Notes under the pieces: generated by a model
What the model was told of the DNA's origin: nothing
Databases searched by the model: none
The model's input: only the letters and a program-made list of their open reading frames with translations
DNA from: Acidimicrobiaceae bacterium
GTDB taxonomy: Bacteria; Actinomycetota; Acidimicrobiia; Acidimicrobiales; UBA8592
DNA length: 64,000 nucleotides
Assembly (NCBI GenBank): GCA_024641655.1
Contig: JAHECR010000006.1
Location: 1-64,000, forward strand
Direction: 5' to 3'
Part shown: positions 1,016 through 30,688 of the stretch, piece by piece
Layout: every line of letters begins with the position of its first letter
Numbering within the stretch: position 1 is the stretch's first letter
Position numbers and translations under genes: made by a program

Positions 1016-2629
1016 TTGAAGAGATTCTCCAGGGCTCCAGGCGCTGCAGCATCGGTCGCCGACAGATCTGTGTGGGTCGTCATCAGCGGCTTGTTGCTGG
1101 GGCAGTTCCTCTCGGCCATGGACACCTTGTTGGTGGTGACCGCGCTGCCAACGATCATTGGCGACCTCGGTGGCGCCGACAGGGTCTCGTGGGTCATCAC
1201 CGCGTACATGCTGGCATCGACAGCCCTATCGCCATTGATCGGCAAGCTCGGTGACCTCTACGGCCGTCGACGCCTCTACCAGATGGGGATCGTCGCCTTC
1301 GTCGCCGGTTCGATGCTGGCGGGGGCGGTCACCAGCATGAACCAGCTGATCGCGGCCAGGGCAGTCCAGGGCCTCGGCGCTGCCGCGTTGATGACCTTGC
1401 CGATGGCGATCATCGGCGACGTGGCCGCACCGCGCGACCGGCCGAAATACCAAGGAGTGATGGGGGTCTCGATGCTCACCGCCTCCATCGGCGGCCCTGT
1501 GGTCGGCGGATTCTTCGTCGATCACGCGACGTGGCGGTACGCCTTCTGGATCAACCTCCCTCTTGGCCTGCTTGCGCTTCTGGCGTCGCGTCGACTCCCG
1601 CCGCCTCGTCGCAGTGGAGCCACACCACAGCTCGATCTTGCAGGGGCCGCGTTGGTAGTGCCCACCGCTGCGAGCGCGCTCCTCATCGTCGAGTGGGGTG
1701 GGCGCACCTACGACTGGGGGTCACCCCAGATCATGTTCCTTGCCGTCGCGGTCGTCGTGTTCGGGTTGCTGCTGGTCACGGTTGAACGCCGTGCAGTCGA
1801 GCCCGTGTTGCCGGGACGGATCTTCCGGCAACGCGCCGTGATGATCATCATCGCCGGGGGCGTTGCGAGCGCCGTGGCCATGTGGATTCCCTGGGTGTTG
1901 ATGCCGACGTTCCTCCAGGTCGTGACGGGCGCGTCAGCGACCAATTCCGGCTTGAACCTCGCGCCCATGATCCTCGCCCTCACTGCGACCTCGGCGCTCG
2001 TTGGTCGCTACATCACCACCACCGGCAAGTACGTTTCCCTGCCTCCTCTGGGGTCTGCCATCGCCGTAGTTGGGCTATTCCTGTACACGACGATGGGCGC
2101 GGACACGACCCGATTCGAGGCCAGCACCTACATGGTGATCGTCGGCGTAGGCCTCGGCATGTCCATGCAGGTTCTGGTGATTGCGGCGCAAGCGAACGCT
2201 GCCCAACGCGACATCGGCGTGGCGACCGCCGCGGTTGGGTTCACCCGCCAGCTCGGAGGAGCGTTGGGCGCGACCATCGCTGTGAGCGTCTACAACTCCG
2301 CCTTCGCCGACAACCTCGCCAGAGTGTTCTCCCCAGCCGAGCGGGAGGCACTTGGCGACGGCGTGCTGCGCGGCAGCCCCGAAGCCATCCGAGCGCTGGA
2401 GCCGGCCCAGTCGGCGCTGGTTGTCGACGCGCTCGCCGATGCGCTCCACAAGGCGTTCCTCTTCGCGGTGCCCGCGATGCTCGCCGCTGGCGTGATCCTG
2501 CTGTTCGTCGGCCATCGGGACCTCCGGGTCACCGACGAGGAGACCATCGATGGGCCGCCAGCCAAAGGTGCTGAAGATGTGCTGACTGCGGCCGGTAACC
2601 CGCCTCAGCCTGACCACACCGTTCAATAG
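1016..2629 (+). CDS. MFS multidrug efflux transporter, DHA2 (EmrB/QacA, 14-TM) type
   Basis: This is an integral membrane drug:proton antiporter of 537 residues. I chose the TTG at 1016 because CGGAGG sits 9 bases upstream; the frame stays open back to 938 but the extra residues are arginine-rich and atypical. The sequence shows the family's first-helix motif (LGQFLSAMDTLLVVTALPTI), the loop 2-3 motif A (GKLGDLYGRRRLYQ) and many hydrophobic segments, and has the length usual for 14-helix members. The next gene is a PPOX protein 8 bases downstream, then a MarR regulator, which is a common efflux-regulator arrangement. Substrates cannot be predicted. Confidence 0.9.
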   Translation: MKRFSRAPGAAASVADRSVWVVISGLLLGQFLSAMDTLLVVTALPTIIGDLGGADRVSWVITAYMLASTALSPLIGKLGDLYGRRRLYQMGIVAFVAGSMLAGAVTSMNQLIAARAVQGLGAAALMTLPMAIIGDVAAPRDRPKYQGVMGVSMLTASIGGPVVGGFFVDHATWRYAFWINLPLGLLALLASRRLPPPRRSGATPQLDLAGAALVVPTAASALLIVEWGGRTYDWGSPQIMFLAVAVVVFGLLLVTVERRAVEPVLPGRIFRQRAVMIIIAGGVASAVAMWIPWVLMPTFLQVVTGASATNSGLNLAPMILALTATSALVGRYITTTGKYVSLPPLGSAIAVVGLFLYTTMGADTTRFEASTYMVIVGVGLGMSMQVLVIAAQANAAQRDIGVATAAVGFTRQLGGALGATIAVSVYNSAFADNLARVFSPAEREALGDGVLRGSPEAIRALEPAQSALVVDALADALHKAFLFAVPAMLAAGVILLFVGHRDLRVTDEETIDGPPAKGAEDVLTAAGNPPQPDHTVQ

Positions 2630-2637
2630 GAGAACGC

Positions 2638-3075
2638 ATGCACATCCCCGAAAGTCACGCCGATCTCCTCTCGGCAGCACCGGCGGTGATTCTGGCTACC
2701 GTCGGTCCGGACGGATTCCCGCAGGTGACGGCGGTGGGCTTCGCCCAGGACGGTGAGCGAATCATCATGAGCGTCACCGCCGACAAGCACAAGGCCAAGA
2801 ACCTGTGGCGACATCCAGCGTGCTCGTTGATGTTCGTCCAGGCTGGCAACCTGAGCCGAACCCTCGAGATGCGGGGACTGGCGGAGGTCATCGAGGACCC
2901 AGAGTTCGTCTGGGCTGCGAAGGTGGCAGAAGCCAACGGCACCGATGGCGCCTCCCGTTCGTCTGCTCCTCATACGATCTCGGGAGCGCCCGCTGCGAAA
3001 CTGATTTCGTGCTCGCAGCGGCTCGTAGGGTCGGCCCTTTCTGCTTGTTCGGGGAGCGTCGCCGATAACTGGTAG
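2638..3075 (+). CDS. Pyridoxamine 5'-phosphate oxidase-fold (PPOX) flavin/F420-binding protein, C-terminus altered
   Basis: Residues 1-100 match the split-barrel PPOX family: ILATVGPDGFPQVTAVGF near the N-terminus, a K-A-K-N-L motif (KHKAKNLWRHPACSLMF) and LEMRGLAEVIEDPEFVW. Members bind FMN or F420 and reduce small substrates. The last 45 or so residues do not resemble the usual closing strand of the family and are rich in Ser and Ala, so a frameshift around 2940 is possible. It lies between the MFS gene (8-base gap, with GGAG before the ATG) and the MarR gene (10-base gap), which suggests a three-gene operon. The substrate is unknown. Confidence 0.75.
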   Translation: MHIPESHADLLSAAPAVILATVGPDGFPQVTAVGFAQDGERIIMSVTADKHKAKNLWRHPACSLMFVQAGNLSRTLEMRGLAEVIEDPEFVWAAKVAEANGTDGASRSSAPHTISGAPAAKLISCSQRLVGSALSACSGSVADNW

Positions 3076-3085
3076 CCTCTGAGAG

Positions 3086-3571
3086 ATGGTTAGTCGACCG
3101 CCGGGGATCCCCCGCGATTGCCCGCCGGAGTTGGAACCGGACCTCGGTTGGGGTCTGGGCCTGGTCTTTCGGACGTATCGGCATGCAACGACGGACCTCC
3201 TCGAACGCCTTCCAGGCGGTATGCGTGGCTTCCACGTTCTGTTGGTTTCAGTGCAAGGCGAGCCTGGGAGCCAGGTCAGACTGGCGCAGAAGACTGGCTC
3301 GGATCGGACGGTCATGACCTACCTCCTCGATGATCTCGAAGAGGCCGGGCTCGTGATCCGTGAGCCTGACGTGGACGATCGCCGCGTGAAACGTGTTACC
3401 TCGACCCCCAAGGGCGAGCGCGAACTCGCTCGGCTCCAGGAAGCGCTTAGCGTCATCGAAGAGGACCTCCTCGATGCGCTCGACGCCCAAGAACGCGTCC
3501 AATTCAGGTCCATGGTCTCGAGGCTTGCTGCCTCCGTGCTGACGAGACCAGATCCAGAGGACTGCCCCTAG
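3086..3571 (+). CDS. MarR family transcriptional regulator
   Basis: The 161-residue protein has the MarR winged helix-turn-helix: a recognition-helix region SDRTVMTYLLDDLEEAGLV around residues 72-90 followed by the wing motif REPDVDDRRVKRVTSTPKG. Family members dimerise and repress efflux or oxidative-stress genes until they bind a small ligand. It is the last gene of the MFS-PPOX-MarR set and probably controls that transporter, although I see no clear palindrome in the 118 bases upstream of the MFS gene. Start at ATG 3086; no strong ribosome binding site is visible. Confidence 0.88.
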   Translation: MVSRPPGIPRDCPPELEPDLGWGLGLVFRTYRHATTDLLERLPGGMRGFHVLLVSVQGEPGSQVRLAQKTGSDRTVMTYLLDDLEEAGLVIREPDVDDRRVKRVTSTPKGERELARLQEALSVIEEDLLDALDAQERVQFRSMVSRLAASVLTRPDPEDCP

Positions 3572-24119: not shown

Positions 24120-24599
24120 TCACACGAGGGCGGCGTCCACCTTGTCGGTGGCCTCTTCTTCGGGTACGTCGAGGGCGAAGCTCAGCTCCGACACCAGGAC
24201 ACTACGGGCCTTGTTGTAGAGCGTCTTCTCACCGGCGGAGAGGCCCTTGTCGCGGTCGCGCAGTGCGAGGTTCCGGACCACCTCGGCGACCTGGTAGACG
24301 TCGCCGGACTTGAGCTTTTCCTGATGATTCTTGAACCGGCGGCTCCAGTTCGCCGGCTCGCGCACGTCGCGACGCTGGAGGACTTCGAAGAGATCCTCCA
24401 CGTCTTCGCCGCTGATCGGCCAGCGCATGCCGACCTCCTCGGCCTTGTCGACGGGTACCGACAACGTCATCTCACCGTGGGCCATCCGGAGGACGAGGTA
24501 CTCGGTCTGCTGACCGAACACCTCCTTGGTTTCCGTCTTCTCGATGATCGCGGCCCCGTGATGGGGGTACACGACGCGATCGCCGGCTTTGAAGGTCAT
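24120..24599 (-). CDS. carD: CarD-family RNA polymerase-binding transcription factor
   Basis: CarD binds RNA polymerase beta and stabilises open complexes at housekeeping promoters, including rRNA, in actinobacteria. The 159-residue length is typical. The N-terminal Tudor-like RID domain reads FKAGDRVVYPHHGAAIIEKT, and the C-terminal helical domain includes ANWSRRFKNHQEKLKSGDVY and SAGEKTLYNKARSVLVSELS. The mycobacterial tryptophan that wedges into the bubble has a candidate match in the W of PANWSRR. GGGAGAG precedes ATG 24599. It is convergent with the FG-GAP gene. Confidence 0.95.
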   Translation of the reverse strand: MTFKAGDRVVYPHHGAAIIEKTETKEVFGQQTEYLVLRMAHGEMTLSVPVDKAEEVGMRWPISGEDVEDLFEVLQRRDVREPANWSRRFKNHQEKLKSGDVYQVAEVVRNLALRDRDKGLSAGEKTLYNKARSVLVSELSFALDVPEEEATDKVDAALV

Positions 24600-24684: not shown

Positions 24685-25506
24685 CTAACGCGTCTGGGCG
24701 AGTCGGCCCACGCGTCGGGCGGTTTCAGCCGTTGTGCAGACCGCGAGCCACACCGCGGGTTCGAGAAGCTCGGCGAGGTCGACGAGCAGGTCGTCGGGTT
24801 CGGCCACGGTTGCCAGGATCCATCGGCTGAACGACCCGACGTCGAACCACGGCGTGACCGCCCCGTTGAGACCGGAGGTCTGGGGGGTCAGCACCTCGTG
24901 GAGCTCGGGCCAGGTCATCGCCGTCGCTCTGGCAGCGAGTGCAGCGGGCAGCGTCGAGTCGCCCGCGGCCCAGGCCGGGTGCAACGACGCCAGGTGCTCC
25001 CAGGCGAGTCGGCGGGGAGTAGCCGAAGCCGTGGCGAGGGTGAACACGGCGTCGAGCCACGTGGCGTGGGCGACCTCGTGCGGCGAGACGGTCGGGGGGG
25101 CCGTGCCGCGCCCGAGCACGCGCGCCAGCAGGTCGGCGGTGATGTCGTTGCCGCCATCGCGAGCAAGGTGCTCCTGATGGTGGCCGCTGACGAACAGCAC
25201 TGGCGGTGAGCCATCGCGATCGACGACGAGGGCTCGACGGCCCTGGCCGTCGTCGGGGGGTCGCACCAGCACGACGGCGCGCCAGTGCGCCGGCGCCCGC
25301 CAACCGATGAGCGACCTGTCGTGTGGCCCGGCGACCGGATGGACCTGCACCGGCGCTCCATCGGAGCTGTCGTCGCCGAGCCCGACGAGCACCACCGTGG
25401 CGAGGTCGACCGCGTCGGCGGCGTCGAGGAGCCGGAGCGCGACCGCTTCGACGGAAGCGTCGAGCGCAGGTGGGGGAGTGTGGCGTGGACGGGTGGACGT
25501 GGCCAT
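24685..25506 (-). CDS. Hypothetical actinobacterial protein
   Basis: I do not recognise this 273-residue protein. It is Ala/Leu/Val-rich without membrane segments, with a proline-rich start (TRPRHTPPPALDAS), a strand-like SLIGWRAPAHWRAVVLVRPPD, and a helical second half (SPHEVAHATWLDAVFTLATA). The overall pattern recalls the actinobacterial DUF4192 type, which I mention only as a possibility. ATG 25506 has GAGGTG about 6 bases upstream. It is divergent from the DNA methyltransferase gene, with 183 bases between them, and sits beside carD. Confidence 0.7.
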   Translation of the reverse strand: MATSTRPRHTPPPALDASVEAVALRLLDAADAVDLATVVLVGLGDDSSDGAPVQVHPVAGPHDRSLIGWRAPAHWRAVVLVRPPDDGQGRRALVVDRDGSPPVLFVSGHHQEHLARDGGNDITADLLARVLGRGTAPPTVSPHEVAHATWLDAVFTLATASATPRRLAWEHLASLHPAWAAGDSTLPAALAARATAMTWPELHEVLTPQTSGLNGAVTPWFDVGSFSRWILATVAEPDDLLVDLAELLEPAVWLAVCTTAETARRVGRLAQTR

Positions 25507-25689
25507 GGGGCACCTCGTGGCGGTGGTTGCCTTGGGGCGTCCATGTCGTGGCCGCGAACCGTGGTCGTGGGGGTGCAGCTGCGATGTTTGCACGACGCTG
25601 TGACAAGACCGTGGGCCGAGACGGTGTGCGTGCGCCGGTGGGAGTCACGATCGTCGGTCTTGTCACAGGGGGTGATTAGGGTGACGGCC

Positions 25690-27252
25690 ATGAGTGACGA
25701 AGTGGCAGCGAGCACCGATCGAACCCGGGGCACGTCGACATCGGCCTTCGGGGCCGGCCGGCGCGAGAGCCACGACGCCACGGCGTTCTACGCCCGGTTC
25801 ACGCCGCCGGAGATCTCCGACGACGACACGGTCAATCCCATCGACGACTCGGTGTTCGCCGATCCCATCCGCGTGATGGACAGCGCCCGGATCCACGAGG
25901 TCCTTCCACAGAACAGCGTCGCCCTGGTGGTCACCTCCCCCCCGTATTTCGTGGGGAAGGAGTACGAGCTCGCCGTCACCGGCGATCCCAACACGCGCGG
26001 GGCGGCGCCGTCGGTACCCACCACCTATCTCGAGTACCTCGAGATGCTGCACGGGGTGTTCAAGAGTTGCCTGCGCGTGCTCGAACCGGGCGGTCGTATG
26101 GCCATCAATGTCGCGAACCTCGGCCGCAAGCCCTATCGCAGCCTCTCGGCCGACATCATCGGCATCCTCCAGGATGACCTCGGCATGCTCCTGCGTGGCG
26201 AGATCATCTGGCAGAAGGCCGAGGGAGCCACAGGGTCGGTGGCCTGGGGTTCCTACAAGAAGGCCACCAACCCGGTGCTGCGCGACCTCACCGAGCGGGT
26301 CATCGTCGCGAGCAAGGGCCGGTTCGATCGAGCAATGCCCAAGGGCCGTCAAGAGCGCGGTCTGCCTCACGCCAGCACCCTCAGTGCCGACGACTTCATG
26401 GAAGCCACCCTCGATGTCTGGAGGATCAGCCCGGAGTCGGCCCGGCGGGTCCAGCATCCGGCGCCCTTCCCGCTCGAGCTTCCCCGCCGGCTGATCGATC
26501 TGTACACCTACCGCGGTGATGTGGTGATCGATCCATTCCTCGGCAGCGGCACCACGCTCGTCGCCGCCGAACGGACCCAACGACGCGGCATCGGCTTCGA
26601 CCTCGACCCCCAGTACGCCGAGATCGCTCGGGCACGACTCGATCACGAGCGCCAGCGGCCCAAGGTCTCCTATGTTCATGTCGACGGTGCCGACCCCCTG
26701 CCGCTCGAGCTTCCCGCGAATGCCGAGGAACGCCTGGAACACTTCCAGGCACGTGCCACCCGGGAAGGCAAGAAAGCCGCCGACATCGCTGAAAACGTTC
26801 TGCGCGACGCCGGTTTCGAGATCATCGAGGAGAAACCCAAGGTTGCCCGGCTCGGCCTCCAGTTCAACTTCACCGTTGCGGCCGAAGACGGCACCCGGTG
26901 GTACGTCGACGTGTCGGGGGCCTTCACCACCGTGCGCCCCGGACTCATGCGCACCGACACGGTGTGGAAGCTCCTCGGTCGGGTACACGCGCTCAAGGCT
27001 GCCGAAGACCCCCGCAACCCCGAGCAGGTGCTGGTCCTCACCTCCAACCTGCCCAAGGCGAACAGCGAGGGCGACAAGGCGCTGCGCGCCGTCGGGCCCA
27101 ACGGTCTGTTCGACGCGGTCGAAATGTACGACGCCGCCGGTGTGGCCCGCCTGGCCGAGTACGCGTCAGGACGCAGCGTCCAGCCCCTGCCGGGCTTCTG
27201 GTCCGTCGATGACATCGAGTCGCGTTTCGAGCCCGCCGGGGGTGCTGGTTGA
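25690..27252 (+). CDS. Site-specific DNA methyltransferase (beta class) with C-terminal extension
   Basis: The catalytic motif IV VTSPPYFVGKEYE (residues 81-93) precedes the SAM motif I VIDPFLGSGTTLVAAERT (279-296), the order of beta-class amino-methyltransferases. S-P-P-Y favours N4-cytosine methylation, although N6-adenine enzymes share it. Residues 345-520 form an extension not needed for methylation (AENVLRDAGFEIIEEKPKVA, then GTRWYVDVSGAFTTVRPGLM), possibly for target recognition or a nuclease-like fold. I chose ATG 25690; GTG 25681 is an alternative. Its TGA overlaps the next gene, and three genes in all form a cassette that may be a restriction-modification system. Confidence 0.85.
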   Translation: MSDEVAASTDRTRGTSTSAFGAGRRESHDATAFYARFTPPEISDDDTVNPIDDSVFADPIRVMDSARIHEVLPQNSVALVVTSPPYFVGKEYELAVTGDPNTRGAAPSVPTTYLEYLEMLHGVFKSCLRVLEPGGRMAINVANLGRKPYRSLSADIIGILQDDLGMLLRGEIIWQKAEGATGSVAWGSYKKATNPVLRDLTERVIVASKGRFDRAMPKGRQERGLPHASTLSADDFMEATLDVWRISPESARRVQHPAPFPLELPRRLIDLYTYRGDVVIDPFLGSGTTLVAAERTQRRGIGFDLDPQYAEIARARLDHERQRPKVSYVHVDGADPLPLELPANAEERLEHFQARATREGKKAADIAENVLRDAGFEIIEEKPKVARLGLQFNFTVAAEDGTRWYVDVSGAFTTVRPGLMRTDTVWKLLGRVHALKAAEDPRNPEQVLVLTSNLPKANSEGDKALRAVGPNGLFDAVEMYDAAGVARLAEYASGRSVQPLPGFWSVDDIESRFEPAGGAG

Positions 27253-27572
27253 TCGCCGCGGTCGCGACTGCGGTGGTGCACACCGAACCTGCTTCGGTCT
27301 ACCTCGCCGACGACATCGACACCCTGCACCGGTTGCTCGCCCTCGAGGTGGTGGCTCGCACCGACGCCGGGCTCCTCAACGGGCGCGCCGCCGAGATCCG
27401 AACCGCGCTGCTCGACGAGCGGTGGGGCGATGCCGTCGTGACTTGGATCCGCGAAACGGGCACCGGCATCGACGTGTACACCAACAACAGCGTGTACACC
27501 GCCGATGACCTCCCACCCGATCTCATCGGCGCGCAACTCCAGTTCGCTCGCCTGTTCCGCCAGGCTCGCTGA
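27249..27572 (+). CDS. Small protein of the methyltransferase cassette
   Basis: I do not recognise this 107-residue protein. It is mixed alpha/beta with a central TWIRETGTGIDVYTNNSVYT stretch and a helical end. A TTG at 27249 overlaps the methyltransferase TGA (TTGA), so it is translated by coupling, and the nuclease-like gene starts 9 bases after its stop. Its size and position would suit a small subunit or a regulator of the two larger proteins. Confidence 0.6.
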   Translation: MIAAVATAVVHTEPASVYLADDIDTLHRLLALEVVARTDAGLLNGRAAEIRTALLDERWGDAVVTWIRETGTGIDVYTNNSVYTADDLPPDLIGAQLQFARLFRQAR

Positions 27573-27581
27573 GCGCCGGTC

Positions 27582-28589
27582 GTGGCCGCCGTCCGCACCG
27601 AGATCACCGAGATCGTCACCGGCCTCGCGATGCTCGGCTACCGCGACCTGGCCCAAGCGCTCGAGGTTCGCCCCGGACACATCCTCAACGTCACCGGCGC
27701 GCACTTCGATCGTCTGGCCGAGGTGTACCGCGCCGGCAGTCACCCCGACGACTTCGCGGTTGCCTGGGCCAACGGCGCCACCTTCGCTCGTGCCAACGAC
27801 GGTCTGCGGGGTCGGCCCCCTTGGTCGATCGAGTGGAAGGGCCCGCACAGGCCGCCTGGCTACGAGCAGATCCCTGCCGACCTGCGGATCGACCACGTGT
27901 ATCTGGTGAGCTGCAAGTACGGCTCCACCATCTTGCACAACGCCAGCCCGACGCACCTGTTCGACCGGCACCTCGCCGAGCGACGCGTCGAGCGCGGCGC
28001 CGACTGGTTCGCCGACGTCGCACCCGAGGCCTATCAAGCCCTTTGGGAGACCATGCGGGCCGAGCTCGACCTGCGGGCGCTGCCGGTGGTCGTCGGCGAG
28101 CTCACTCCCCAGCACCGCAAGGCCATCAAGTCGGCGTCGCCCCGGGGCCCGTGGCCCGGCGCCGCGGCCGAGGCCTACCAGGACTTCGTCCTCGCCGTCG
28201 CCCAGGTTTCCGCCGAGCGTTGGCGGTCGGGGTTGTCGACTCCAGCGAGACGTGAGGAGATGCTGTGGCGCCTCATCCGTCTGCAGGCAGCCCCGTATTT
28301 CGTGCTCGGCGCGTCCCACGGCGGTGAACCCCTGCGCTACCGGGTCGGAACCCCCTGGGATTTCCGGGAGCGATACACGCTCCAGTCCTTCGATGTCTGG
28401 TCCGACCCCGCAGGTCAACCCATCGTGCGTTGGCGGGCCGACGCCGTCGACCGTGCAGGCGACCGTCATCATGTCGACGGTCACGTGGAGGTGCGCTGGA
28501 GTCATGGCCGTTTCTCAGGCGCACCCGAAGCCAAGGTCCATCTCGACACCGATCCGCTCCGAGTAGCAGGCTACGTTCCTCTCACGTGA
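27582..28589 (+). CDS. Uncharacterised protein with PD-(D/E)XK-like motifs; candidate restriction endonuclease
   Basis: No named family is certain. The 335-residue protein has two adjacent motif stretches: WSIEWKGPHRPPG (E-x-K at residues 84-86) and DLRIDHVYLVSCKYGS (Asp 104, Lys 112), followed by LHNASPTHLFDRHLAERRVE. A strand with Asp followed by a strand ending in x-K is how PD-(D/E)XK nucleases look, and a conserved S-C-K-Y is what one would expect at such a site. The N-terminal LGYRDLAQALEVRPGHILN suggests a helical DNA-binding start. It follows the DNA methyltransferase and small gene directly, hence the restriction proposal. The start is GTG 27582. Confidence 0.6.
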   Translation: MAAVRTEITEIVTGLAMLGYRDLAQALEVRPGHILNVTGAHFDRLAEVYRAGSHPDDFAVAWANGATFARANDGLRGRPPWSIEWKGPHRPPGYEQIPADLRIDHVYLVSCKYGSTILHNASPTHLFDRHLAERRVERGADWFADVAPEAYQALWETMRAELDLRALPVVVGELTPQHRKAIKSASPRGPWPGAAAEAYQDFVLAVAQVSAERWRSGLSTPARREEMLWRLIRLQAAPYFVLGASHGGEPLRYRVGTPWDFRERYTLQSFDVWSDPAGQPIVRWRADAVDRAGDRHHVDGHVEVRWSHGRFSGAPEAKVHLDTDPLRVAGYVPLT

Positions 28590-29029
28590 GCCCCGCGTCG
28601 GACGCCGAGTGCATCTTCTGCCGCATCGTGTCGCGCTCGGAGCCTGCCGATGTCGTCGTCGACGATGACGTCGCGGTCGGGTTCCTCGACCGGCGCCCGC
28701 TTTTCGTCGGGCATACATTGCTGGTCCCGCGTGTCCACCACGAGACCCTGCCCGATCTGCCTCCGGACGTTGTCGGCCCACTCTTCGCGCGGGCTCGTCG
28801 CCTGGCGGCGGTGATGACCACCGCACTCGGCGCCGGGGGCTCCTTCGTGGCCGTGAACAACACGGTCAGTCAATCGGTGCCGCACCTGCACGTCCATGTC
28901 GTTCCCCGCACCCGTGGCGATGGGTTGCGCGGCTTCTTCTGGCCCCGTACGAGCTACGACGACCCCACCCATGCCGCGCGGGTTGCGTCGGTGCTGCGTG
29001 CCGCGTACGACACCGAGCCGGTCGAATGA
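28586..29029 (+). CDS. HIT family nucleotide hydrolase/transferase
   Basis: The 147-residue protein has a metal-type start (CIFCRIVSRSEPADVVVDD) and the histidine triad QSVPHLHVHVVPRTRGDG, in which H-x-H-x-H makes the nucleotidyl intermediate. Such proteins hydrolyse AMP-lysine, dinucleoside polyphosphates or similar compounds. GTG 28586 overlaps the stop of the candidate nuclease, and its TGA overlaps the ATG of the DUF429 gene, so translation is coupled across the cassette boundary. Whether this ties it functionally to the methyltransferase cassette is unclear. Confidence 0.92.
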   Translation: MSPASDAECIFCRIVSRSEPADVVVDDDVAVGFLDRRPLFVGHTLLVPRVHHETLPDLPPDVVGPLFARARRLAAVMTTALGAGGSFVAVNNTVSQSVPHLHVHVVPRTRGDGLRGFFWPRTSYDDPTHAARVASVLRAAYDTEPVE

Positions 29030-29730
29030 GCCGCGCCGCTCCCCGCGTCGTCGCGGGGGTCGACGGCGCTCGCCGGGCGTGGGTCGTCGGGTATCTCCCC
29101 CTCGACCCGCAGGCACGGGGTTGGCTCGAATGCCACGACACCTTCGCCTCGGTGCGTCGGGCAGTGGACGCGGCGCATGCCGAAGCGGTGGGCATCGACA
29201 TGCCGATCGGCCTCGCCACGGGGGCCCAGCGTGCCTCCGACGCCGCCGCGCGGGCACGCCTCGCCGGCCGCCGGTCCACGCTGTTCCCCACCCCGGCAGC
29301 TGCGGTGTTGCACGCGGCCAGTCACGCGGAGGCCGTACGCGTCAACCGCGACGCCGTCGGGGTCGGCATCTCGATCCAGGCTTGGAACCTCGTGCCCCAG
29401 ATCCGCGAGGTTCGCGCCGCGATCGCGCCCGGCGAGTGCGACCGCTTCGTCGAGTGTCACCCCGAGACCAGCTTCGTTGCCATGGCCGGTCGGGCCTTGG
29501 CGCCGAAGAGGTCCGCCGCCGGTGTCGGGCAGCGGCTCGCCGCGCTTCGCCCGGAGGTCGCCGAGCTCGACGAGTTGCTGAGCGCCGCACCGCAGGCATG
29601 TGCAATCGACGACGTCCTCGACGCGTTGGCGGCCGCATGGTCGGCGCGTCGGCTGGCCCTGGGCGTTGCCGAACACCTCGGCGACGAGGTCACCGATGTC
29701 GACGGGTACCCGCAGACCATCATTGTGTGA
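29026..29730 (+). CDS. DUF429 domain protein (predicted RNase H-like fold)
   Basis: The 234-residue protein matches DUF429: VVAGVDGARRAWVVGYLPL at the start, AVGIDMPIGLATGAQRASD in the middle, then RSTLFPTPAAAV and FVECHPETSFVAMAGR. The conserved acidic residues (D in GVDG, D in GIDMP, E in VECHPE) fit a nuclease-like active site, but the function of the family is not established. ATG 29026 overlaps the HIT stop (ATGA). It is convergent with the glutaminyl cyclase gene. Confidence 0.85.
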   Translation: MSRAAPRVVAGVDGARRAWVVGYLPLDPQARGWLECHDTFASVRRAVDAAHAEAVGIDMPIGLATGAQRASDAAARARLAGRRSTLFPTPAAAVLHAASHAEAVRVNRDAVGVGISIQAWNLVPQIREVRAAIAPGECDRFVECHPETSFVAMAGRALAPKRSAAGVGQRLAALRPEVAELDELLSAAPQACAIDDVLDALAAAWSARRLALGVAEHLGDEVTDVDGYPQTIIV

Positions 29731-29767: not shown

Positions 29768-30688
29768 TCAGGGCGATGGCTCGAAGACGACGTCGAACAT
29801 CACCGGCCAGTACTTCCCGGTGATCAGGAACGTGCCCGAAACCGGGTCGTAGGCGACCCCGTTCAGGACGTCGGCGCCGGTCGCGTCGATGCCGTCGAGC
29901 AGGCCTGACGCGTCGATCACGTCGGTGACAATCCCCGTGTCTGAGATCACCACGATCGCGTCGGTCTTCCAGACGTTCGCCAGAACCTGGGTACCGACAC
30001 ACTCGAGCTCGTTGAGGGAGGTCAGGGGCACGCCGGCGTTCGTGACGGTGACGGTGCGCAGAGGCGTGAACGTCGTCGGATCGCGGTAGGTGAGGGTCGA
30101 CGACCCGTCCGACATCACCAGCTGACGACCGTCGAAGCACAGGCCCCAGCCCTCGCCCTCGTAGCGGAACGTGTCCACGATCTCGAAGGTTGCGAGGTCG
30201 TAGACGAAGGCGAGACCTGCCTGCCAGGTCAGCTGGATGGCGCGGTCGCCGACGATCGCCAGTCCTTCAGCGAAGTACGTGGCGGCGACGGGGGCGGACC
30301 GAACAACGGCACCGGTTTCCGGGTCGATCTCGGTGATGGCGGACTCGCCGCGCATGCCTCGGCTCTCGTAGAGCCGTCCCCCGTCGAACTGGAGCCCCTG
30401 GGTGAACGCGGTGGTGTCGTGGGGGAGGACCTCGAGTACGTTCGGGACGAGTCGCCGCGGCGCGGAACCTGCAACCGGTGTGGGGAGCCCCGGCACCGGT
30501 GTCGTGGGCAACGCTGTCGCGGTGCCGGCTGGGTCAGTGGAGCCGGCCGTCGCCGTTGGCCCGGCCGGCGTGCCCCCGTCGGCTGAAGGGACGGTTGCAT
30601 GGGTGCCGCAGCCGTTGGCGATCGCAGCGATGGCCAACGCAGCGAGAGCCGCCATGAACCGGCGCGGGGCCAGGCGGGTTGGCGTCAT
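29768..30688 (-). CDS. Glutaminyl-peptide cyclotransferase (plant-type), lipoprotein
   Basis: The 306-residue protein has a lipoprotein signal (ALAALAIAAIANGC, Cys at about residue 27), a Thr/Pro/Ala-rich linker, and from residue 80 the five-bladed propeller glutamine cyclotransferase domain: LPHDTTAFTQGLQFDGGRLY, ESRGMRGESAITEIDPETG and LNELECVGTQVLANVW. The enzyme class converts N-terminal glutamine to pyroglutamate. Here it would act outside the membrane. A small coiled-coil gene and a metalloprotease gene lie upstream on the same strand, so an envelope-protein group is likely. Confidence 0.88.
   Translation of the reverse strand: MTPTRLAPRRFMAALAALAIAAIANGCGTHATVPSADGGTPAGPTATAGSTDPAGTATALPTTPVPGLPTPVAGSAPRRLVPNVLEVLPHDTTAFTQGLQFDGGRLYESRGMRGESAITEIDPETGAVVRSAPVAATYFAEGLAIVGDRAIQLTWQAGLAFVYDLATFEIVDTFRYEGEGWGLCFDGRQLVMSDGSSTLTYRDPTTFTPLRTVTVTNAGVPLTSLNELECVGTQVLANVWKTDAIVVISDTGIVTDVIDASGLLDGIDATGADVLNGVAYDPVSGTFLITGKYWPVMFDVVFEPSP

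Follow-up and report, generated by a model that had tools for sequence, protein, structure and literature searches.

Type II restriction-modification (RM) systems with beta-class (N6/N4) DNA methyltransferases (MTases) comprise an MTase and a protein with a restriction endonuclease (REase) fold, which are usually encoded by adjacent, co-directional genes, and the nuclease does not occur without the MTase. Among the monomeric Type II REases, HinP1I and MspI are structurally alike, according to the title of a reference listed in PMC4081073. RM systems are patchy and move horizontally, vertical inheritance at a fixed site being unusual for restriction enzymes, and in Halobacteria conserved orphan MTases are found beside such patchy systems (PMC6471742).

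The locus described here likewise encodes an MTase, designated MT, and a protein with a predicted REase fold, designated P3. It differs from Type II RM systems in the presence of a third gene, MID, in the extra C-terminal domain of the MTase, and in a putative nuclease that is inherited vertically and is often encoded away from the MTase. The predicted fold of P3 is similar to that of the HinP1I/MspI group over most of the protein and, as in that group, P3 exhibits a hairpin with an aspartate, an x-x-K-x-x-S arrangement and a non-acidic residue two positions before the lysine. In contrast to these enzymes, P3 comprises 335 residues instead of about 250, carries a signature of its own (RWSHG...PEAK) and has no Pfam match. 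As in the Halobacteria, the MTase is widespread in the class and the nuclease is patchy; here, however, the putative nuclease always occurs together with the widespread MTase, is mainly vertical and is often found at one site.

The window, that is, the whole stretch of 64,000 nucleotides analysed, lies on contig 47 of the draft genome (3.9 Mb) of an uncultured Acidimicrobiia bacterium. The genes of interest are the following.

24120-24599, reverse strand: CarD-like gene, conserved upstream flank of the site
24685-25593, reverse strand: 302-residue protein, conserved upstream flank
25690-27252, forward strand: MT, beta-class DNA methyltransferase of 520 residues (PF01555, E 2.6e-38; structure-model fits)
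27249-27572, forward strand: MID, 107-residue protein without a family, dispensable, directly 3' of MT
27582-28589, forward strand: P3, probable restriction endonuclease of 335 residues with a HinP1I/MspI-like predicted fold (alignment, model)
28586-29029, forward strand: HIT-domain protein, present here in few lineages only
29026-29730, forward strand: DUF429-like protein, recurrent downstream flank
29768-30688, reverse strand: glutaminyl-peptide cyclotransferase-like protein, conserved downstream flank

The initial annotation had reported a beta-class MTase, a 107-residue protein and a 335-residue protein packed with a TTGA overlap and a 9-base gap, all of which are present. The MT frame ends with the TGA at 27250-27252 and MID starts with the TTG at 27249; the stop codon of MID (27570-27572) is followed by the gap and by P3, which starts with the GTG at 27582 and stops at 28587-28589. 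Stop-to-start overlaps continue beyond P3, with GTGA between P3 and the HIT gene and ATGA between the HIT and DUF429-like genes, which indicates a longer operon (27582-29730). The HIT gene is found 3' of P3 in only six other loci.

The methyltransferase and the small middle protein

With regard to MT, PF01555 covers residues 77-313 in the Pfam profile search, and DPFxGSGT (residues 281-288) lies C-terminal to motif IV, which is the order of the beta class.

25933-25947, forward strand: motif IV of MT, T82-S-P-P-Y86, invariant (alignment of MT relatives)
26530-26556, forward strand: SAM-binding motif of MT, DPFLGSGTT (alignment of MT relatives)
26710-27249, forward strand: C-terminal domain of MT, residues 341-520, alpha/beta, conserved, without family match

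SPPY is typical of N4-cytosine MTases, and its presence suggests that MT probably makes N4-cytosine methylation. The structural model of MT aligns with TTHA0409, a putative modification methylase of Thermus thermophilus (Z 26), with CcrM (Z 23.6) and with the N4-cytosine MTase of A. vaga (Z 22.8). The catalytic domains are alike, whereas MT differs from all three by its added C-terminal domain and by TSPPY. The C-terminal domain has no match to a named family, and a PDB sequence search with it gave nothing meaningful. Against the NCBIfam equivalog of the CcrM-type cell-cycle MTases (NF050803), MT scores 54.2 bits, where the cut-off is 830.

MT is present in 241 of the 296 genomes of the class, and orthologues are also observed in streamlined genomes of about 1 Mb (L247-L252). 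Even the weakest MT matches examined, with E values of 1e-61 or better, are far above the next paralogue (1e-21, in the single genome having one). MT is therefore a distinct, near-core family of Acidimicrobiia, and a candidate core epigenetic enzyme of this class.

MID matches no Pfam or NCBIfam family, the PHROGs scan yielded no name for it, and the PDB sequence search nothing meaningful; its sole match in PADLOC is Csx19, at chance level. It was found in 31 of the 296 class genomes. Since MID lies directly behind MT in six genomes without P3 (G138, G084, G191, G100, G072 and G287, the last copy being partial), it is assigned to MT. The small middle gene, proposed earlier as an unusual third component, goes with MT rather than with P3, and many MT-P3 pairs lack it.

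Motifs and predicted fold of P3

The initial annotation could name no family for the third protein, and indeed P3 matches none in Pfam or NCBIfam; the PHROGs scan gave no name and the PDB sequence search nothing meaningful. Three regions of P3 are of particular relevance.

27831-27839, forward strand: E84-W-K86, invariant, on a strand (residues 83-85; alignment, model)
27879-27926, forward strand: D100...D104...S110-C-K112-x-x-S115, invariant, proposed catalytic hairpin (alignment, model)
28488-28535, forward strand: signature E303-x-RWSHG...PEAK318, PADLOC REase_II match, common to a phage-contig protein

The AlphaFold2 model of P3, built from 49 sequences, has a pLDDT of 91.3 and a pTM of 0.86. 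Foldseek alone found no match to this model in the PDB with E below 0.001. After realignment, the top PDB row was HinP1I 2fkc (Z 6.8, rmsd 4.4, 198 residues of the 247-residue chain, model residues 1-328), followed by HinP1I 1ynm (Z 6.6), MspI 1sa3 (Z 5.1) and a next row at Z 3.9; all these scores are below 8, a range in which Z may reflect a common fold arrangement. Only restriction endonucleases align over most of the length of the model, and the three top matches are mutually consistent because HinP1I and MspI resemble each other. As judged from the model, P3 probably folds like HinP1I and MspI. The predicted fold is nearest to restriction endonucleases, in line with the earlier proposal. 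Foldseek also recovered the fold of P3 in five functionally uncharacterised proteins from phages or viruses (E 1.2e-8 to 3.1e-5).

With regard to family profiles, none of the 49 members matches PF11463 (R-HINP1I) or PF09208 (Endonuc-MspI) at E up to 10, and an hhalign comparison of P3 with an MspI relative was not significant (probability 1.35%). PF11463 was found in 0 of 296 genomes of the phylum, but the controls were equally silent, so its absence is not established; a genome scan for the PADLOC REase_II model PDLC03456 was empty, with silent controls as well. In the direct comparison, PDLC03456 is matched by 47 of the 49 P3 members (best E 2.6e-4) over only about 25 residues, which in the P3 of the window correspond to the C-terminal RWSHG...PEAK region. 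One member matches DruL4 of PADLOC (E 0.0017), and neither MID nor P3 qualified as a signature protein of the named multi-gene defence systems of PADLOC (BREX, DISARM, Druantia etc.). The sequence support for an REase is independent of the fold, yet thin. A phage-contig protein with RWSHGKFxGxPE, encoded about 15 bases upstream of the gene for a cytosine-5 MTase, also matches PDLC03456.

The PD-(D/E)XK-like residues noted earlier in P3 are present, and E84-W-K86, D100, D104 and S110-C-K112 are invariant in all 49 aligned sequences; the likely catalytic lysine strand, however, is S110-C-K112 and not a canonical (D/E)-x-K. The proposed active site comprises the strand pair 101-103/107-113 with D100, D104, S110-C-K112 and S115, as mapped by motif and secondary structure rather than by residue-level superposition. 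The sequence of MspI reads KTD...NIKHSS, with a non-acidic residue two positions before the lysine, as in P3. The serine (S110) that replaces the acid of the catalytic strand could also point to a protein whose fold derives from a nuclease but which binds DNA without cutting it, for example to regulate or to read the MT mark, and purely regulatory proteins likewise tend to vertical inheritance. Nevertheless, the catalytic-type polar residues E84, K86, D100, D104, S110 and K112 never vary in the alignment, MspI itself exhibits an asparagine at that strand, and we consider a non-cutting P3 very unlikely.

Two further loci with REase-like genes were observed. On a phage contig (L123:88-1680 and 2000-3103), a truncated P3-like REase lies adjacent to a cytosine-5 MTase, a second one being on the other strand. 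In another actinobacterial genome (L273:96-2661), an MspI-like REase of 391 residues, with 140 extra N-terminal residues, lies beside a cytosine-5 MTase.

Distribution, chromosomal site and inheritance of P3

In a scan of 84,980 species genomes, 246 P3 relatives were recovered, and nearly all of the best 80 carry the label Acidimicrobiia or Actinomycetota. Within the class, P3 is present in 50 of 296 genomes, corresponding to 40 of 149 genera; no convincing P3 relative was found in plasmid and annotated phage records. A bin labelled Armatimonadetes (L099) carries a short MT and a P3 at 56% identity, which reflects transfer or mis-binning.

Conservation of the trio holds in part. Among the best 80 loci, 46 retain the order and orientation seen here, with MID upstream of P3 and with MT preceding wherever the contig reaches, whereas MT stands directly before P3 without MID in 14, MT is near P3 but separated or downstream in 2, and P3 is alone in 18. 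Because the MID-P3 order recurs in this manner and purifying selection acts on each gene, the arrangement of the trio is not due to chance.

MT is present in all 50 P3-containing genomes of the class and, in agreement with the initial annotation, every P3 homologue checked has an MTase in the same genome. In the case of the 18 lone-P3 loci, MT was found elsewhere in the genome each time, at 51-63% identity; two of these genomes are also among the 50, which leaves 66 distinct genomes, barring further duplicates. P3 and MT are about 0.5 and 1.0 Mb apart in two single-chromosome records (L101 and L105). Conversely, 191 of the 241 MT genomes are without P3. The chance of 50 co-occurrences out of 50 is 1.2e-5 if genomes are independent, and the true significance is weaker because they are not. 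The putative nuclease gene is never found without the MTase, as would be expected of a restriction enzyme that depends on its methylase. A methylation-dependent nuclease (Type IV or IIM) directed against MT's own mark was rejected, since P3 always coexists with MT.

The gene order CarD (reverse), 302-residue gene (reverse), MT, MID, P3, cyclotransferase (reverse) recurs in many loci. In others, P3 stands alone between CarD and the DUF429 or cyclotransferase gene, and in three genomes without P3 (L214-L216) MT alone adjoins the cyclotransferase gene. P3 distances correlate with those of CarD (r 0.93, 35 loci) and of the cyclotransferase (r 0.84, 45 loci), and MT distances with those of MID (r 0.94), while the correlation between MT and P3 is moderate (r 0.53); all of these values are inflated by the clustering of close relatives. 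Over the 19 loci with all four genes, r is 0.85 for P3-CarD and 0.47 for MT-P3. The median dN/dS is 0.12 for lone P3 and 0.22-0.27 for the trio genes, values that are good to an order of magnitude only, as dS is near saturation in this GC-rich DNA. P3 is inherited for the most part vertically, and MT and MID appear to form a module exchanged more freely.

The moderate correlation between MT and P3 would also be consistent with P3 being functionally unrelated to MT, adjacency and co-occurrence reflecting neighbourhood inheritance only, the more so as 81% of the genomes have MT anyway. This is most improbable: MT is never missing even when P3 is far away, and neighbouring MT and P3 genes are also observed repeatedly outside the CarD site.

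For this lineage, the idea that the trio is a mobile defence cassette was discarded on account of the fixed synteny and of the divergence of P3 with neighbouring housekeeping genes. The description of the trio as a cassette does not hold, the trio being neither fixed nor mobile, with P3 often at a conserved site and sometimes far from MT.

Several other arrangements were observed. In two genera of one family (L227 and L229), a lone P3 lies near an ABC-permease gene, with MT elsewhere, which constitutes a second conserved lone-P3 site. In L084:3229-6001, from the same genome as L235, an insert of lower third-position GC separates MT and P3; it comprises an HTH/Zn-peptidase (ImmA/IrrE-like) gene and a 176-residue gene, followed by a duplicated 93-codon 3' end of MT, and is an insertion with a long flanking duplication. 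In genome G004 (L246:7337-8608), a tyrosine-recombinase-like gene (423 residues) lies between P3 and MT.

Concerning site avoidance, no word was depleted only in genomes with P3 among the 1496 words tested (4- to 6-mers with enough counts and gapped palindromes; 8 P3-containing genomes and pooled P3 loci against 8 genomes without P3), and CTAG was low in both sets alike. This result carries little weight, since a chromosome whose sites are permanently methylated is under no need to avoid them.

The vertical pattern favours the main rival explanation, in which P3 would be a housekeeping nuclease or nickase whose role is tied to the MT mark, such as strand-directed repair, replication or recombination, and not defence. 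Vsr with Dcm and MutH with Dam are models for such a role. The fixed site, the divergence that tracks CarD and the cyclotransferase gene, the strong purifying selection on lone P3, the near-core status of MT and the lack of observed avoidance are all consistent with it, and HinP1I-type enzymes are monomeric and nick a single strand at a time (PMC4081073). However, P3 is confined to 50 genomes of the class, its nearest folds are restriction enzymes and its phage-contig relative adjoins a cytosine-5 MTase; a housekeeping role is therefore unlikely.

Proposed function and significance

Based on these observations, we consider it likely that the trio is a Type II-like RM system with a new nuclease family of HinP1I/MspI fold. 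The RM reading of the initial annotation is thus retained in outline, with the fold of P3 nearest to restriction endonucleases and MT in every P3 genome, while its details have changed. In this system, MT would methylate a short DNA site chromosome-wide, probably at N4-cytosine. P3 would be the cognate endonuclease and would likely share this target, which it would cut or nick only in the unmethylated state, thereby attacking incoming DNA that lacks the methylation. MID could be a small protein that assists MT, with a possible role in stability, specificity or timing. P3 would thereby be a patchy, largely vertical companion of the near-core MT, able to work from another chromosomal place. It is rather unlikely that P3 has been domesticated, acting in trans from its fixed site with the near-core methylase on repair, replication control or self/non-self quality control.

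No paper on the MT-MID-P3 system was found in the literature searched, and REBASE may already list it. Systems of this kind are known; the libraries searched hold no name for the nuclease family, for the C-terminal domain of MT or for MID. With the RM assignment, a protein family that is unnamed in Pfam and NCBIfam acquires a testable function and may constitute a new family of REases, the predicted fold of which is HinP1I/MspI-like. The results further point to a DNA methyltransferase that spans the Acidimicrobiia, a large class with few cultivated members. Finally, a vertically inherited restriction nuclease located up to about 1 Mb from its methylase would contradict the usual picture of a mobile, tightly linked RM pair.
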